A stretch of 64,000 nt of DNA, taken from IMG/VR virus record IMGVR_UViG_3300043774_000656, positions 59,305 through 123,304 of that record; one strand, given 5' to 3'. Below the pieces are notes generated by a model. That model had not been told where the DNA came from and did no database searches. It saw only the letters and a program-made list of their open reading frames with translations. Every line of letters begins with the position of its first letter. Positions within the stretch are counted from its first letter, which is position 1. Both the position numbers and the translations under genes were made by a program. The DNA is from a virus. Of this stretch, positions 15,758 to 38,915 are shown piece after piece.

Positions 15758-16774
15758 TTATCCTGGAAATGAACCCATAAATGAAAGAGGGGTATTGTTT
15801 CCGCTTGAACCACTTGAACCACTTGAACCTGAAGAACCATCTGTGCCAGATGTACCGCTTGAACCAGAAACTCCAGTCCCACCTGATGTACCACTTGAGC
15901 CAGAAACTCCTATTGCACCAGACGTACCTGAAGAACCATCTGTGCCAGATGTACCACTTGAGCCAGAAACTCCAGTCCCACCTGATGTACCTGAAGAACC
16001 ATCTGTGCCAGATGTACCACTTGAGCCGGATGCACCTGTTGCTCCTGACGTACCTGAAGAACCGTCTGTGCCGGATGTACCAGAGCTACCTGATGAACCA
16101 CTACTACCACTTGAACCAGACGAGCTCGATGAACCACTGCTACCACTTGTGCCGTTTGCTCCTGATGTACTTACCTGTACACCTATAAGTATTATAAGAT
16201 CAGTGTTATTTGGAAAATTTGTACTACCGACACCATTAGATGATATCAATGTGACAGGATAAGTCCAGTAATTATTAGGAACTGTAGTCGGTGTGCCATT
16301 TACTTTCCAGATCTGATAATCCACAGAGTTATTTCTATCTTGAATTATTATCTGCTGGTTGATTTGAATAAGACCTAAAATTACATCTATATCCTGGTTG
16401 TTTTGGTCAAGATGATCTATACTAATGCTAGTAGAGTTTATCTGCGTCGCATTATTCCAGATGATATTTCCAGCACCTGGGTCGCCTGACTGTATAGTAG
16501 TTTCAGCAGCATAATCAAATAAACTTGAAGATGCACCGTTTATACCACTGGTACCGTTTATACCACTTGTGCCTGAAGTACCGGCAACACCGCTGGTTCC
16601 TGAACTACCTGCAGTACCTGAGCTACCTGCAGTGCCTGAAGGTCCAACTGGACCTGGTGCACCAGGTGAGCCTAGAGTTTGCCAGGCAGATCCATTCCAT
16701 TCCCAGGACTCTCCTGTAGGAAGTGTGTATATCTGTCCGATACTTAACGGCGGTGGTGGAAAACTTATTGGCAT
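15758..16774 (-). CDS. collagen-like fibre protein 1 (338 aa)
   Basis: N-terminus MPISFPPPPLSIGQIY and WEWNGSAWQ (carbohydrate-binding-like), a first short G-x-y block (about 35-80), a globular beta domain (about 85-205), then over 100 residues of G-x-y triplets rich in GTSG and GSSG. Triplet repeats of this type form trimeric triple helices in phage fibres. Pro is scarce, so stability would come from Thr/Ser. The codon repeats also open long mirror ORFs on the plus strand, which are not genes. Confidence 0.88.
   Translation of the reverse strand: MPISFPPPPLSIGQIYTLPTGESWEWNGSAWQTLGSPGAPGPVGPSGTAGSSGTAGSSGTSGVAGTSGTSGINGTSGINGASSSLFDYAAETTIQSGDPGAGNIIWNNATQINSTSISIDHLDQNNQDIDVILGLIQINQQIIIQDRNNSVDYQIWKVNGTPTTVPNNYWTYPVTLISSNGVGSTNFPNNTDLIILIGVQVSTSGANGTSGSSGSSSSSGSSGSSGSSGSSGTSGTDGSSGTSGATGASGSSGTSGTDGSSGTSGGTGVSGSSGTSGTDGSSGTSGAIGVSGSSGTSGGTGVSGSSGTSGTDGSSGSSGSSGSSGNNTPLSFMGSFPG
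15787..16147. repeat. collagen-like codon repeat
   Basis: Degenerate 9-nt repeats (gly-thr/ser-ser codons; plus-strand look CCAGATGTACC etc.) covering the C-terminal triplet region of collagen-like protein 1. Prone to slippage and to copy-number change. Confidence 0.85.
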
Positions 16775-16778
16775 ATTT

Positions 16779-18002
16779 TTATCTTGTTATTTCCTCCCAG
16801 TCCATAGATCCATAGACCGTTTCGCCGTTGGTGGAAGCAGCTACGGCTAAACATATTTCATGCGGATCCGGGATAAAAGGATCACGTTCAAGCTGAAATC
16901 TAAAAAGGGCCTCTTTAAGAACGTCGGTGTTTACTGATGCTTGTATAGTGGATGAAAGATATCCTGTAGCAAGCGTTCTACCACCAGAAACGCCTGTTCC
17001 GGTGATGTTATATTCTACTGCAGAATCGGCACCTGCTGATACCCACGATCCGCCGGCAGTTGTACAACTTTCAAGCATTTTCCAATTGTATTTTCCAGTA
17101 CCAGCTCCCATAATTGAAAGAGCTGAAATAATTGCAATTGCGTCTAACGCTGTAGTTTTTAATCTTATGCTAATAATAGGATAGTATGTTCCTCCAGTTG
17201 CAAGAGAAACTGGGGTAGTAATAGGCGTAACGACAGCCTGTTGAACTCCATGCATTTCATATCCGCCTTCAGATATTACCGAAGAACATATTTGTTTAAA
17301 TGTACTACCTGTTACAGTACCTGCAGTATTAAAGATCTCATATCGTAGAGGTAATGATGCAGTAGTAATATATGTTGATGTGATAATGTTTGCGTGATGA
17401 AATATGTGACACGTATGAAACTCACCATTAATGACAAATCCACAACGAACACTGCCTACGCCTAGCCATTCAAAGTCCATAAAGAGGATTTGCGCCTTAG
17501 TAATATCTAAGGTAATACCAGAAGGACCGGTGCCATCCATTGGATCTACATTCCAGGAAGCTTGTGCAACTGGCGTATCAACAAGTACGCCAGTTACGGA
17601 ACTCCTCTCTACAAGTGAAAGCGTAGAATTTGCTAATTGCAAAAACATACCGTTTGCTGCTCCGTAATAACCAACTCTTTGTGTTAGGCCTGACTGCGCA
17701 GGTGCCATAACAAATGTATTAAGAGCTAGGAGACTCTTGCCAGGCTGATATGCAAACACCTTATAGGTTTCACGTCTTATCGTTGATCCCGATGCGGCTG
17801 TCACATTTAGGTTTACTAAACCTTCGTTTGCATCAAAAACAGCGGTACCGCCAGTGGCAGTTTGAGTAGCCCAAAGACCGTTATCTTTGTAACGATGTGA
17901 CGAATCGAAAAGCGTAAACGGCTCTGATATACGCAATCTTCCGAATGAATCGAAATTATTAGTATATGCAAACTTTATTTTATCCGTGTAGGTGTACGAC
18001 AT
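16779..18002 (-). CDS. virion structural protein (407 aa)
   Basis: Starts MSYTYTDKIKF and continues NFDSFGRLRISEP, a signature I know from structural proteins of large myoviruses (capsid or tail decoration). Beta-rich throughout; receptor-like second half. Lies between the two collagen-like genes in a cluster of five virion genes read leftward with 4-14 nt gaps. Exact location on the particle cannot be told. Confidence 0.8.
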   Translation of the reverse strand: MSYTYTDKIKFAYTNNFDSFGRLRISEPFTLFDSSHRYKDNGLWATQTATGGTAVFDANEGLVNLNVTAASGSTIRRETYKVFAYQPGKSLLALNTFVMAPAQSGLTQRVGYYGAANGMFLQLANSTLSLVERSSVTGVLVDTPVAQASWNVDPMDGTGPSGITLDITKAQILFMDFEWLGVGSVRCGFVINGEFHTCHIFHHANIITSTYITTASLPLRYEIFNTAGTVTGSTFKQICSSVISEGGYEMHGVQQAVVTPITTPVSLATGGTYYPIISIRLKTTALDAIAIISALSIMGAGTGKYNWKMLESCTTAGGSWVSAGADSAVEYNITGTGVSGGRTLATGYLSSTIQASVNTDVLKEALFRFQLERDPFIPDPHEICLAVAASTNGETVYGSMDWEEITR

Positions 18003-18008
18003 ATTTCT

Positions 18009-18890
18009 TTATATTGTTTTCCAGGAATTGTTTCTGAATAAAAAGTTTAATGACATTCTATCTATTTTCATCAATACTGATGATTCTCCATTGATTAGTT
18101 GTCCACCTTGCCCTTGTACCAGTATGCCTCTGTTGCCATAGCTTATACCTCCTACCTCATCTGCAATATTGATAAACTTTCCTTCATCAGAAGGCACAGT
18201 TCCTAATGGGAGTGTAATAGTACAAACTCCTGTATTATATGTAACTCCATAATATTCGTATGCAAAAGTCGGAGAATAGGTTGAAGTGTTAATATAACTT
18301 GCCTGATACGTAACATTACCTAATTGTGTAGGCTGCATCCAAAGATACTGTGTTCCATCCCATACCCAAACATATTCTATACCGTTGTCATTGTCAATCC
18401 ATCTTGCTCCTACATTAGTAGGATCTGGTGACGGACGTGTCGGTTGGTAGTAAAATTCAGTAACACCTGAAGTACCAGATGAGCCAGATGAGCCAGATGA
18501 GCCAGATGAGCCAGATGAGCCAGAAGTTCCTGTTACACCACTTGTACCAGATGTACCTCTAGTTCCCGATGTACCATCTATACCTGATGCTCCTGTTGCA
18601 CCGCTTGTACCAGATGTACCTCTAGTTCCAGATGTACCATTTACACCACTTGTACCACTTGAACCTCTAGTACCTGAAGTACCGCTTTGACCATTTGTAC
18701 CTGAAGTACCATTTGTACCTCCTCCGCCACCACCACCTCCATTTGTACCAGATGTACCACTTGTACCTCCACCTCCAATGTTTAATGGAAAACCTAAACC
18801 GTCGTAGTAGTTACCTGCGCCATCGGTTTGAACTACTCGTTCAAACGTAGAAGATATAAGTTTATTGGTTAAATCAAATGGTCCTGGCAT
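18009..18890 (-). CDS. collagen-like fibre protein 2 (293 aa)
   Basis: About 40 N-terminal residues (MPGPFDLTNKLI) are followed by about 100 residues of G-x-y triplets (GTSGTSGTNG, GGGGGG, GSSGSSG), then a beta-rich C-terminal domain from about 145 that opens FYYQPTRPSPDP and has the pattern ARWIDNDNGIEYVWVWDG. Fibre with a triple-helix shaft and a globular tip. The tip differs fully from that of fibre 1, suggesting swapped receptor domains. Confidence 0.87.
   Translation of the reverse strand: MPGPFDLTNKLISSTFERVVQTDGAGNYYDGLGFPLNIGGGGTSGTSGTNGGGGGGGGTNGTSGTNGQSGTSGTRGSSGTSGVNGTSGTRGTSGTSGATGASGIDGTSGTRGTSGTSGVTGTSGSSGSSGSSGSSGSSGTSGVTEFYYQPTRPSPDPTNVGARWIDNDNGIEYVWVWDGTQYLWMQPTQLGNVTYQASYINTSTYSPTFAYEYYGVTYNTGVCTITLPLGTVPSDEGKFINIADEVGGISYGNRGILVQGQGGQLINGESSVLMKIDRMSLNFLFRNNSWKTI
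18466..18775. repeat. collagen-like codon repeat 2
   Basis: Nine-base repeats encoding the G-x-y shaft of fibre 2; a run of five identical GAGCCAGAT units is seen on the plus strand at about 18481-18525. Confidence 0.85.
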
Positions 18891-28940: not shown

Positions 28941-28991
28941 GTTATGGTGTAAATATAACCCAACCCTATCAGAAGCCAAAGAGACCTACTG
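28941..28991 (-). promoter_or_regulatory. early-type promoter
   Basis: CAGTAG, GTCT, CTTT, 20 nt, TATATTTACACCATAAC; the upstream box is slightly diverged. Confidence 0.75.
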
Positions 28992-36562: not shown

Positions 36563-36709
36563 ATGGATATAGAATGTACATTAAATCGTTTGGAAGGTGG
36601 ATGGTGGTTCGAACTCGGTTTCAGCTATCAGAGAACAGAGTATCACCACAAACATAAACGAGTGATTACCATTGCACTTTTATTGGGTAGTGTGTACATT
36701 CGATGGTAG
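36563..36709 (+). CDS. small hypothetical protein (48 aa)
   Basis: MDIECTLNRLEGGWWFELGF then His-rich YHHKHKR and a hydrophobic end. Stops 7 nt before the first tRNA-like element, so it is on the same transcript. Confidence 0.55.
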   Translation: MDIECTLNRLEGGWWFELGFSYQRTEYHHKHKRVITIALLLGSVYIRW

Positions 36710-36716
36710 CAAAAAT

Positions 36717-36822
36717 AGTCAGGTGGCGGAATTGGAAAGTCAATTGGAGAGTCATAAACAGGAAAGATACCATATGACATCGGTGGTAAATGCCAATACA
36801 GGTTCGATTCCTGTCCTGACTA
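36717..36822 (+). ncRNA. tRNA-like element A (no normal D or anticodon arm)
   Basis: Acceptor stem AGTCAGG/CCTGACT is a perfect 7 bp; T arm ACAGG-TTCGATT-CCTGT is perfect; discriminator A then C. The 5' part GTCAGGTGGCGGAATTGG copies elements B and C. The centre (70 nt) forms other helices: ATTGG/CCAAT, GTCAT/ATGAC, TACCA/TGGTA. No 7-nt anticodon loop is seen, so not an ordinary tRNA. Confidence 0.6.
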
Positions 36823-36824
36823 CA

Positions 36825-36977
36825 ATGAGTAAGAGATACTCAGAGTCTTCGAATCAAGACTTTAAGAATGATTCCGCAGAATGTCTACGGCGCGAGTGGG
36901 ACATCGTGGGAATAAAGGGAGCAGACACAGCCCCTCCCAGTAGTGTTGATTTATGGTTTCATGTGGTAAGACACTAA
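36825..36977 (+). CDS. doubtful small ORF (50 aa)
   Basis: ATG 2 nt after tRNA-like element A; MSKRYSESSNQDFKNDSAEC. Could be a real small protein or part of a structured RNA (AGTCTT/AAGACT and GGGAG/CTCCC hairpins lie inside). A longer frame starting at 36672 runs through element A and is rejected. Confidence 0.3.
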   Translation: MSKRYSESSNQDFKNDSAECLRREWDIVGIKGADTAPPSSVDLWFHVVRH

Positions 36978-37045
36978 TGTGTTTGTTTTTAAGAAAACTA
37001 AACCGTTAAAATCTACTCATCAGTAATCTCAAGGTGGGGAAACAT

Positions 37046-37134
37046 GGTCAGGTGGCGGAATTGGTAGACGCACCGAGTGAGCGGCGGAGGTAATAGTCAA
37101 TAACTCCTAACAGGTTCGATTCCTGTCCTGACTA
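37046..37134 (+). ncRNA. tRNA-like element B (Leu-like body, abnormal anticodon arm)
   Basis: Acceptor GGTCAGG/CCTGACT (G-U at the end), D arm GCG-GAATTGGTAGA-CGC as in bacterial tRNA-Leu, T arm ACAGG-TTCGATT-CCTGT, A73; CCA not encoded. Between D and T arms, 37 nt fold only as CCG-AGTGAG-CGG and GGAG-N14-CTCC; no 5-bp stem with a 7-nt loop and U33 can be drawn. Closest of the three to a true tRNA; an annotation tool may call it tRNA or pseudo-tRNA. Confidence 0.6.
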
Positions 37135-37151
37135 CAAAAACAAGATAGATT

Positions 37152-37364
37152 ATGAAATACATTTTTAGAGGACATACGATATTTGAGTATATGCCAGATA
37201 AAGGTGTAGTAAAACAACATGACATCAGTGGTCTCCCGATTGCAGGATTCAACTATTGTGGATTCATTAACGAGGACTACAAACTATTAGCTGAGTTTTT
37301 TAATACTGTTTATAGGCATACCCAAGATCAGGATGTTAAATTAAAAGATATTATAGTAAATTAA
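37152..37364 (+). CDS. hypothetical protein (70 aa)
   Basis: MKYIFRGHTIFEYMPDKGVV; small alpha/beta protein 17 nt behind tRNA-like element B. Unrecognised. Confidence 0.65.
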   Translation: MKYIFRGHTIFEYMPDKGVVKQHDISGLPIAGFNYCGFINEDYKLLAEFFNTVYRHTQDQDVKLKDIIVN

Positions 37365-37369
37365 AGTAT

Positions 37370-37576
37370 ATGGCAAAATGGCGCATTAGAGTCGAGAGAC
37401 TAGACGAAGAGTATAATATCCTGTATCAGGGTCAACATGAGATTACCGATGAGATGATCGCCGAAAGTCGATTGGGTGAAAAGGAGATGATGTCCATGGC
37501 CTTTCTACAATGTATGCATAGACTGGAAATACTGAGACACGAAACAGAAAATAGAAATGATACAGGAACAATTTGA
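37370..37576 (+). CDS. hypothetical protein (68 aa)
   Basis: MAKWRIRVERLDEEYNILYQ; beta strands then helix, acidic. Overlaps the next gene by 20 nt. Confidence 0.65.
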   Translation: MAKWRIRVERLDEEYNILYQGQHEITDEMIAESRLGEKEMMSMAFLQCMHRLEILRHETENRNDTGTI

Positions 37577-37955
37577 CGTTGGCCGAATTATTGGCGTGAA
37601 AATAGTTGGCCGTAGTTTGACGAGTTATACATGGATGCCTGCAAAGCAGAAGACCACTTTCTTTGGCTTAATCAAAAGAAATAAATGGTGGAGCGAAGGC
37701 TTTTACCAATGTGGCTGCTATCAAGAATGCTATGAAAGTGGATGCTGGGATGCCTGTTCGTATACTGCAGAAGAATTGAGGCGAGATGGCTATATTGTAG
37801 AATCGGGCAAAGTGTATAGTAAACCCTATGTTACAGTGTATCTGGAGTCCGAGTATCAAAGTACAAAGCGCTTCAACACAGAGGAAGAGGCGAAACAATG
37901 GGTTGATGAGCTAAAGGCAACTAGTGGTAAAACATTTGAAATTATAGAACGATGA
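37557..37955 (+). CDS. Cys-rich hypothetical protein (132 aa)
   Basis: Central cysteine cluster (YQCGCYQECYESGCWDACSY, five Cys in 20 residues) that could bind a metal, then a TEEEAKQWVDELKA helix. Overlaps neighbours by 20 and 4 nt. Function unknown. Confidence 0.65.
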   Translation: MIQEQFDVGRIIGVKIVGRSLTSYTWMPAKQKTTFFGLIKRNKWWSEGFYQCGCYQECYESGCWDACSYTAEELRRDGYIVESGKVYSKPYVTVYLESEYQSTKRFNTEEEAKQWVDELKATSGKTFEIIER

Positions 37956-38092
37956 AAGGATTCATGAGTATCGTGATATTGCTAATGGCCCTGTTTATGG
38001 TCATACCAATGTTTTTGCTAATTTTTGAACATATGATGGAGGGTAAAGACTCGATTTTGCAGAAATTGCTGAATAACATCACAGAAGTATAA
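37952..38092 (+). CDS. small membrane protein (46 aa)
   Basis: MKGFMSIVILLMALFMVIPM then LLIFEHMMEGKDS: N-terminal membrane helix and short tail. Begins in an ATGA overlap and ends 4 nt before tRNA-like element C. Confidence 0.6.
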   Translation: MKGFMSIVILLMALFMVIPMFLLIFEHMMEGKDSILQKLLNNITEV

Positions 38093-38096
38093 AACT

Positions 38097-38224
38097 GGTC
38101 AGGTGGCGGAAGAGGGTATTTCCGGATAAAACCCCAGGTAGACGTATAGTTGGTGAAATCCCGAGGCGGGTAATTATTACATAAGCCCCTAACTATGTTG
38201 CAGGTTCGAATCCTGCTCTGACCA
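38097..38224 (+). ncRNA. tRNA-like element C (expanded, 128 nt)
   Basis: Acceptor GGTCAGG/TCTGACC, T arm GCAGG-TTCGAAT-CCTGC, A73 then C. D loop split by a hairpin insert (GGGT-N13-ACCC at about 38114-38134) before AGGTAGACG. The centre forms ATAGTT/AACTAT closing CCCG-AGG-CGGG and GTAA-TTA-TTAC hairpins in place of an anticodon arm. Shares ends with elements A and B. Confidence 0.58.
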
Positions 38225-38243: not shown

Positions 38244-38915
38244 ATGAGAAAGTTTTTTTCTTTAGCCCTAATTTTTGCCTGGCTGTCGTCAGTTGCTCAA
38301 GAGCCCATTGAGGGTAAGGATGCCGGGTCTGTCCATTGGCGAGTTCAAGTTGGAGCATTTCAAAAACCAGATGACCTGAGATTCGATAACTTTAAAGATG
38401 TTGGGAGAGAATGTGAGAATGGTATTTACAAATGGACAGTAGGCTTTTTTACAGATCGAGAATCGGCTGTTCTCTATAGGGACAGTATTAGGGTTACAGG
38501 TTACCCTGATGCCTTTGTTGTAGGATATCTTGACGGAAAGAGATCTTCTCTGAAAGAGATCGAGACCAATAGGGTAGATTTAGATGCCTTCAAGCCAGAT
38601 ACAGTACAGATTACAGTAACTGATACAATATGGGTTCCGGGCAAAGAAGTAGGGGCCATTGAGAAGGTTGCGGTTGCGGATTCGGTTAATAACGATGGTA
38701 TTGATATAGAATTGATGCGACAGAAATTAAACAGGATAACCTGGATGAAGGTTGCTCTAGGTCAAACTGCTCTAGTTGGAGGTGTAGCACTTAGCATAGT
38801 AACAGGGGCTTGGGTTCCTGTCATGATGGGTGTTGCAGTAGTCGAGCTTTATCTGTTAACGGAGAGTAAGTATCGTTTCAATCGTAGAGATCTCAGAAAA
38901 ATTACCGGGTACTGA
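38244..38915 (+). CDS. exported SPOR-domain protein with C-terminal membrane helix (223 aa)
   Basis: Signal peptide MRKFFSLALIFAWLSSVAQ, then a SPOR-like domain (WRVQVGAFQKPDDL ... YKWTVGFFTDRESAVLYRD ... GYPDAFVVGYLDGKR, about 32-105), a linker, and hydrophobic helices near 170-205. SPOR domains bind denuded peptidoglycan at division sites. In a phage this could mark lysis or division interference. 19 nt after element C. Confidence 0.8.
   Translation: MRKFFSLALIFAWLSSVAQEPIEGKDAGSVHWRVQVGAFQKPDDLRFDNFKDVGRECENGIYKWTVGFFTDRESAVLYRDSIRVTGYPDAFVVGYLDGKRSSLKEIETNRVDLDAFKPDTVQITVTDTIWVPGKEVGAIEKVAVADSVNNDGIDIELMRQKLNRITWMKVALGQTALVGGVALSIVTGAWVPVMMGVAVVELYLLTESKYRFNRRDLRKITGY

Follow-up and report, generated by a model that had tools for sequence, protein, structure and literature searches.

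Non-decoding elements with a constant tRNA body and variable centres in a virus record and other phage contigs

The 64,000-nucleotide (nt) stretch of DNA analysed here (the window; bases 59305–123304 of the 123,304-bp IMG/VR virus record IMGVR_UViG_3300043774_000656) contains three elements, A, B and C, which begin and end like transfer RNAs (tRNAs) around centres of quite different kinds. Are these tRNAs at all, and if not, what do phages keep them for? In IMG/VR phage contigs A, B and C have more than 300 unique relatives, and the explanation which we favour, and hold to be probable, is that all three are phage-encoded non-decoding RNAs on a tRNA body, matured by the host, in which the centre is the working part.

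Anatomy of elements A, B and C

Counted to and including A73, element A is 106 nt long (36717–36822), B 89 nt (37046–37134) and C 128 nt (38097–38224); all lie on the plus strand, precisely where an earlier note on this DNA, made from the sequence alone, had placed them. When the 123,304-bp record was scanned strictly for a fully paired 7-bp acceptor together with a paired T arm having a TTCRA loop, these three were the sole acceptor-plus-T-arm structures recovered, and 60 dinucleotide shuffles of the record gave none; a search of the whole record with the Rfam tRNA model matched the same three places only. Since the exact T-arm sequence GGTTCRANTCC has no further copy in the whole record besides those in A, B and C, the record probably holds no ordinary tRNA.

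In each element the acceptor is paired at 7/7 positions and the T stem at 5/5. The perfect acceptor arms reported by the earlier note are thus real as regards pairing, but B and C include one wobble each (G1-U72 and G7-U66, respectively), and the 5' end of A, which it gave as GGTCAGG, actually reads AGTCAGG (A1-U72). Element A has the acceptor AGTCAGG/CCTGACT (36717–36723 paired with 36815–36821, followed by A73 at 36822), U8-A14, A15-U48 and G18G19, and the T arm ACAGG-TTCGATT-CCTGT (36798–36814). A clear D stem is missing, as had been recognized; when the tRNA core is imposed, the hairpin AATTGG-AAAG-TCAATT is predicted in its place (36730–36745), a weak fold from a single sequence. The centre of A (36746–36797), which stands where the anticodon arm belongs, is predicted to form GTCATA/TATGAC and GGTGG-type hairpins, with no 5-bp stem and 7-nt loop.

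Element B has the Leu-like D arm that had been described (GCGGAATTGGTAGACGC, 37055–37071) and the same T arm as A (ACAGG-TTCGATT-CCTGT, 37110–37126); its centre (37072–37109) consists of a 3-bp CCG/CGG stem with a 6-nt loop in place of a 7-nt one, followed by a GGAG/CTCC arm. In element C both features pointed out earlier were found again: the D arm (GCG/CGT, 38106–38145) carries a 24-nt hairpin insert in its loop (GAGGGTATTTCCGGATAAAACCCC), and a long arm closed by ATAGTT/AACTAT, with hairpins inside, replaces the anticodon arm (38146–38199) ahead of the T arm GCAGG-TTCGAAT-CCTGC (38200–38216). Similar D-loop inserts occur in loci L034, L072, L087, L091, L104 and L110.

Folding, ARAGORN and Rfam agree that a 5-bp anticodon stem with a 7-nt loop, U33 and purine 37 is absent from A, B and C. 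The Rfam tRNA model scores 29.7 bits for A, 37.0 bits for B and 17.1 bits, over part only, for C. ARAGORN called B alone in the window, as Leu-GAG, though it has no proper anticodon arm; this and the anticodons assigned to other elements (Ile, Glu, Ser, '???') were rejected as artefacts of forced fitting.

Relatives in phage contigs

All searches were made with exact seeds. A 14-base seed from the 5' end matched at least 120 viral contigs, most of the matches being elements with the same two ends around unrelated middles of about 30–130 nt, and a 26-base seed from the 3' end likewise matched at least 120. The parts usually shared are the acceptor AGTCAGG/CCTGACT, the T arm ACAGGTTCGAATCCTGT and A73-C74, while the anticodon region is replaced by about 20–130 nt of unrelated RNA, giving whole elements of 66–190 nt. 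When the loci so collected (1.87 Mb) were rescanned regardless of the seeds, 480 acceptor-plus-T-arm structures were recovered, against none in shuffled sequence. The 193 that look canonical use 164 different acceptors; the 287 without a canonical anticodon arm mostly use AGTCAGG or a one-base variant. To control for seed bias, counting was restricted to the non-canonical elements matching neither seed (n=89), and 39 of them have an AGTCAGG, AGTTAGG or GGTCAGG acceptor, compared with 7 of the 193 canonical-looking structures. Few of these seven are convincing as decoders; L070 (Lys TTT) and L204 (Thr TGT) do combine scaffold-type ends with a canonical tRNA. A further seed, independent of these and built on another D arm (AGTCAGGTGGTGTAAT), yielded 68 complete elements, 51 of them unique and 7 of the 68 canonical-looking.

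Core statistics were taken over 264 unique scaffold elements. Of these, 95% have U8, 86% have A14 and 90% have a GG in the D loop, and positions 15 and 48 form a Levitt pair in 207 of the 243 elements with R15 (A15-U48 in 201, G15-C48 in six; Fisher p 1.7e-5 for covariation, a value which is indicative, the sequences being related and not independent). The acceptor-T geometry is 7/5 in all scanned elements, as the scan requires, and A, B and C fit it. Next to the discriminator, C74 is kept in 98% of the elements, as it is in 100% of canonical tRNAs from the same loci, and this agreement is a sign of shared 3' processing. A canonical-looking anticodon arm is found in 4.2% of the 264, compared with 2.3% when the centre is shuffled. 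Decoding was rejected on this near-chance rate and on the presence of real Leu tRNAs in the arrays. The earlier view that ends are kept and centres vary, with no decoding, thus gains strong support at a far larger scale across phage contigs.

Several elements may stand together and among ordinary tRNA genes. The arrays in L253 and L254 have 21 canonical and nine non-canonical genes on one strand, that in L258 has 16 and 12, and 52 of the 53 multi-element loci are same-stranded. Ordinary tRNAs of the arrays have acceptors other than that of the elements, and L253 and L254 already have canonical Leu tRNAs of their own (TAA and TAG). Several carriers (the record of the window, G010, G015, G025 and G030) have no or almost no canonical tRNA, so that the elements cannot be explained simply as what is left of tRNA arrays. 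A phage transfer-messenger RNA (tmRNA) was identified with Rfam at L110 5724–6218, in an array of many canonical tRNAs and several non-decoding elements.

The 3' pattern matched only seven stretches in cellular genomes, all in metagenome bins. A T4-type capsid protein is encoded by half of 30 carrier records and by none of the other half, and the records range from 28 to 289 kb; on these grounds the class probably crosses phage lineages, though the records need not be complete. In one carrier the capsid protein shares 75.7% identity with its counterpart in Flavobacterium phage immuto. A single element with the acceptor AGTTAAG and an ACAGG T arm lies near position 204,000 of LR756501.1, a 735-kb uncultured phage.

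No AGTCAGG element occurs among the matches listed for named cultured phages. Non-decoding centres were also found on further acceptors (GGCTATG, AATCGGT and the group TATCNCCTCA...GGTTACAT), and two cultured phages, immuto and pT24, both carry related non-decoding tRNA-like genes. In immuto (MW353175.1, 20246–20331) what is annotated as tRNA-Cys is a non-decoding element whose D loop bears a hairpin; it belongs to a second scaffold, with the acceptor AATCGGT, which has 12 unique members with varying centre hairpins, none with a 7-nt anticodon loop by our test. Tenacibaculum phage pT24 (LC168164.1) has two genes annotated as 'tRNA-Undet' (192032–192110 and 192399–192477), in both of which a long hairpin stands where the anticodon arm would be.

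Other variant units were seen in the same material. The recurring unit with a GGCTATG acceptor, of 67–70 nt (L017, L045, L089, L106, L129, L165, L196 and L201), has as its centre the hairpin CATACAA-CACC-TTGTATG or ACCCC-AATGGC-GGGGT. The unit TATCNCCTCA...GAAAGNGTAANTGGTTACAT occurs on different acceptors (L094, L096, L163 and L198), and its D-arm-like piece seems to lie 3' of the centre, perhaps through a rearranged order of arms. A leader hairpin, NNNN-GGAAAGAC-NNNN, has a covarying stem and a fixed loop; 21 of its 38 unique copies are followed, mostly 3–7 nt downstream, by a canonical or non-canonical tRNA-like unit, and it is possibly a shared processing signal (L002, L010, L014, L048, L098, L101, L110, L176, L181, L245, L247, L259, L329, L330 and other loci). 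The neighbourhood of the elements often includes a small coiled-coil protein with a membrane anchor (L139 1300–1627, with homologues in 11 loci), and a similar-looking one lies 3' of the immuto element.

Centres and the weighing of explanations

Clustering of centres placed 89 of 268 in recurring groups, the largest with nine members, and left 179 as singletons. Two centre sequences were then used alone as queries among viral contigs, with the ends unconstrained and with earlier loci included in the counts. All 20 occurrences of the family-2 centre lie inside a body with matching acceptor and T arm, as do 11 of the 13 of family 1, the other two having an imperfect acceptor. The acceptor may differ, and then it is changed on both strands: AGTCAGA/TCTGACT in L231 and L250, GGTTAGG/CCTAACC in L251, and AGTGCAG/CTGCACT around the family-2 element of MW202828.1, a complete circular environmental genome. 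In the consensus fold of family 2 compensatory changes affect 12 of 28 pairs, in the acceptor, the D stem, an 8-bp centre stem and the T stem; in that of family 1 they affect 7 of 18 pairs. Identity within family 1 is 94% in the acceptor and 89% in the T stem, against 76% in the centre and 57% in the D arm. As the acceptor and T stem are best conserved, their sequence itself, beyond its pairing, seems to be constrained. A short motif common to the centres was sought, and the one clear signal came from D-arm remnants.

Comparison of the loci thus shows a covarying tRNA core, loss of the decoding arm and recurrence of centres within the body, and argues for spread over unrelated phages. It also bears on two suggestions of the earlier note. 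That these are tRNAs with unusual inserts is sound as anatomy; 89 of the 268 centres recur, however, and no intron of a known type was detected. Group I, group II or other intron families gave no Rfam match in the window or in 15 loci, and the inserts are too short for them; all that Rfam reported from these sequences was tRNA, together with the separate tmRNA in L110. The two largest centre groups, moreover, have a conserved structure of their own, unlike removable inserts. Its suggestion of scaffolded RNAs fits best of the three that it made.

The surroundings of A, B and C in the window are tight. An open reading frame (ORF) of 48 amino acids (36563–36709), read from the sequence, stops 7 nt before A, and the ATG of a 50-residue ORF (36825–36977) lies 2 nt past its A73; a 70-residue ORF (37152–37364) starts 17 nt past B; and C is set between a 46-residue ORF, also read from the sequence, which ends 4 nt before it (37952–38092), and one of 223 residues which starts 19 nt after it (38244–38915). 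All are on the plus strand. There is almost no space for a promoter between these genes and A or C, which makes co-transcription and excision likely. No relatives of the genes adjoining A, B and C were found among viral contigs, so that the three centres cannot be traced in close relatives.

We propose that A, B and C would most likely be transcribed along with the adjoining genes and excised by host tRNA enzymes, RNase P cutting at the 5' end and a 3' tRNA nuclease past A73, with CCA then added. The product would be a compact RNA shielded from exonucleases, in which acceptor, T arm and elbow serve as a constant mount and the region of the anticodon and variable arms, different in each element, would be the working part, acting in trans on a protein or RNA of host or phage. 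Host defence or RNA metabolism as its target is a guess. A constant acceptor and T sequence implies some reader of it, which may be a processing enzyme, a synthetase (leucyl-tRNA synthetase, LeuRS, being the best candidate) or another partner.

Several points weigh against this explanation. Folding energy by itself does not favour the cloverleaf (z of -1.9 for A, -1.2 for B and 0.0 for C), and predicted folding energies are weak in general; the structural support for A, B and C is comparative, not energetic. The centres of A, B and C are all singletons without comparative support of their own, so that membership of the three in the class rests on the body. The constant ends could be due in part to recent common descent or gene conversion and not to recognition. 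No target emerged: complementarity of the centres to their own contigs is not above chance (mean longest complement 10.07 nt, against 9.94 nt when shuffled; n=184), and an antisense small RNA directed at the phage's own genes was rejected. Transcription, processing, stability and action of the centre in trans are steps which we infer.

Of the alternatives, we rank second that the elements are leucylated tRNA mimics, charged by host LeuRS, which occupy EF-Tu or LeuRS or donate leucine outside decoding and whose centres are secondary. Leucine identity in Escherichia coli resides in A73, the A15-U48 Levitt pair, G18G19 and A20a, and tRNA-Leu without its anticodon and variable arms is still active (reviewed in PMC9976931). 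Scored as A73, U8-A14, A15-U48 and GGNA, the Leu set is complete in 16/16 canonical phage tRNA-Leu as against 7.2% of 167 other canonical tRNAs; it is complete in 51.5% of 264 scaffold elements, in 35% of the 116 whose D arm is not that of the seed, and in A and C, B being without U48. The common scaffold D arm is, besides, that of tRNA-Leu. Many elements may be leucylated, and such charging would also be an attractive complement to the explanation which we favour. About half nevertheless do not have the full set and some D arms are non-Leu, LeuRS has no need of a constant AGTCAGG acceptor, and the conserved centre families are left unexplained; it is on account of the fixed acceptor and of these families that we place this alternative second, and we consider it unlikely. 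A role as decoys, soaking up host enzymes or effectors that act on tRNA ends or elbow (toxins of the CCA end, acceptor-stem nucleases, modification enzymes), would benefit phages and account for precisely the parts which are kept and for the several copies per genome, up to 12. For this, however, conserved structured centres would be superfluous, and the real tRNAs of the same arrays have other acceptors. The earlier note had also proposed decoys; those for anticodon nucleases, which are the best known of the tRNA nucleases connected with phages, are a poor fit, since about 96% of elements do not have the arm that such enzymes cleave, whereas decoys for tRNA-end enzymes are possible, and we give decoys as a whole a small chance.

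The elements might also be tRNA genes in decay, or tRNAs that decode unusually or contain introns of an unfamiliar kind, whose ends are homogenized by recombination between copies. The shared Leu D arm and acceptor suggest one ancestral tRNA, recombination could spread the ends, and L070 and L204 are canonical tRNAs with those same ends. Decay would, however, break helices, whereas compensatory changes preserve pairing in the acceptor, the T stem and the Levitt pair; the same arrays have canonical Leu tRNAs (TAA and TAG), and several carrier phages have no or almost no canonical tRNA, so that this origin is improbable. Least probable of all, in our opinion, is that the tRNA body is processing punctuation, a cut signal dividing a polycistronic phage messenger RNA, the centre being irrelevant. 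It agrees with the squeezing of A, B and C between small ORFs of the same strand, with the same-strand orientation of nearly all multi-element loci and with the retention of ends, but it does not explain conserved centres confined to the body, and many elements lie within tRNA arrays.

Returning to host-matured RNAs with a working centre, a wider version of that explanation can be put forward tentatively, as possible though not to be expected: phages, probably mostly those of Bacteroidota, would possess a natural tRNA-scaffold platform, a constant leucylatable body on which many different effector-RNA domains are carried and exchanged between unrelated phages; one such domain might, for instance, inhibit a host protein of defence or RNA metabolism. 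Proteins of the window include phage replication and nucleotide-metabolism genes as well as secreted proteins with, in our reading, Bacteroidota-type C-termini, and because of the latter the host is probably a member of the Bacteroidota.

Two further features of the window may be recorded here. A conserved leader, TATATTTACACCATAACAATCA, lies just 5' of several ORF starts, at 28949 (-), 31417 (-), 32653 (-) and 34282 (+); ORF finders misread it as an N-terminal 'VYLHHNNQQM', and it is probably a promoter or a signal in the 5' untranslated region. Proteins with long collagen-like GTSGSSGT repeats, encoded at 15758–18890, are probably virion fibres.

Relation to known RNAs and significance

The closest likeness is to tRNA, in particular the type II tRNA-Leu, with which the elements share a 7-bp acceptor, T arm, D arm, U8-A14, A15-U48, G18G19, A73 and C74. 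They differ from it in having no decoding arm, 20–130 nt of other structure taking the place of anticodon and variable region, and in the single acceptor sequence common to hundreds of them. Like tmRNA (SsrA) they are non-decoding RNAs with a tRNA-like end, but they have U3-A70 and not the G3-U70 of alanine, no tag frame, and 66–190 nt against about 350; neither Rfam nor ARAGORN detected a tmRNA in the window. The tRNA-like structures at the 3' ends of plant-virus RNAs also retain the ends and elbow of a tRNA and can accept an amino acid. The phage elements, by comparison, are internal, separate genes of double-stranded DNA phages, several per genome, with 5' and 3' ends of tRNA type. In the laboratory, tRNA scaffolds carry a foreign RNA in the anticodon region and the tRNA body confers stability. 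Those constructs (PMC3753655 and predecessors) are artificial, whereas the phage class is natural and evolving. Allo-tRNAs and tRNA-Sec-like tRNAs are non-canonical tRNA structures found in metagenomes, but with 8/4 or 9/3 acceptor-T geometry and an anticodon (PMC7609411), the elements being 7/5 and having none. The ornate RNAs GOLLD and ROOL (PMC12286853) are likewise structured non-coding RNAs of bacteria and phages, though much larger and not tRNA-shaped, and neither gave an Rfam match at element loci.

We found no description of the class in Rfam or in the open-access literature searched, a coverage mostly outside subscription papers and preprints. It is large and apparently undescribed, and its novelty lies in joining a single constant tRNA body to many different structured, non-decoding centres. 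Since tRNA-like RNAs as such are already known, a stricter reader could place it among them.

As the 'tRNA-Cys' of immuto illustrates, a number of genes annotated as phage tRNAs probably do not decode. If the RNAs are made, they would form a large viral non-coding class which tRNA finders miss or call odd or undetermined, and phages would long have used the tRNA body as laboratories do, as a protective mount. The class makes it possible to test directly how much of tRNA recognition, and which parts, can work without decoding, and it offers many candidate RNA-based phage effectors; with two cultured phages, immuto and pT24, carrying such genes, the question can be put to the test now.

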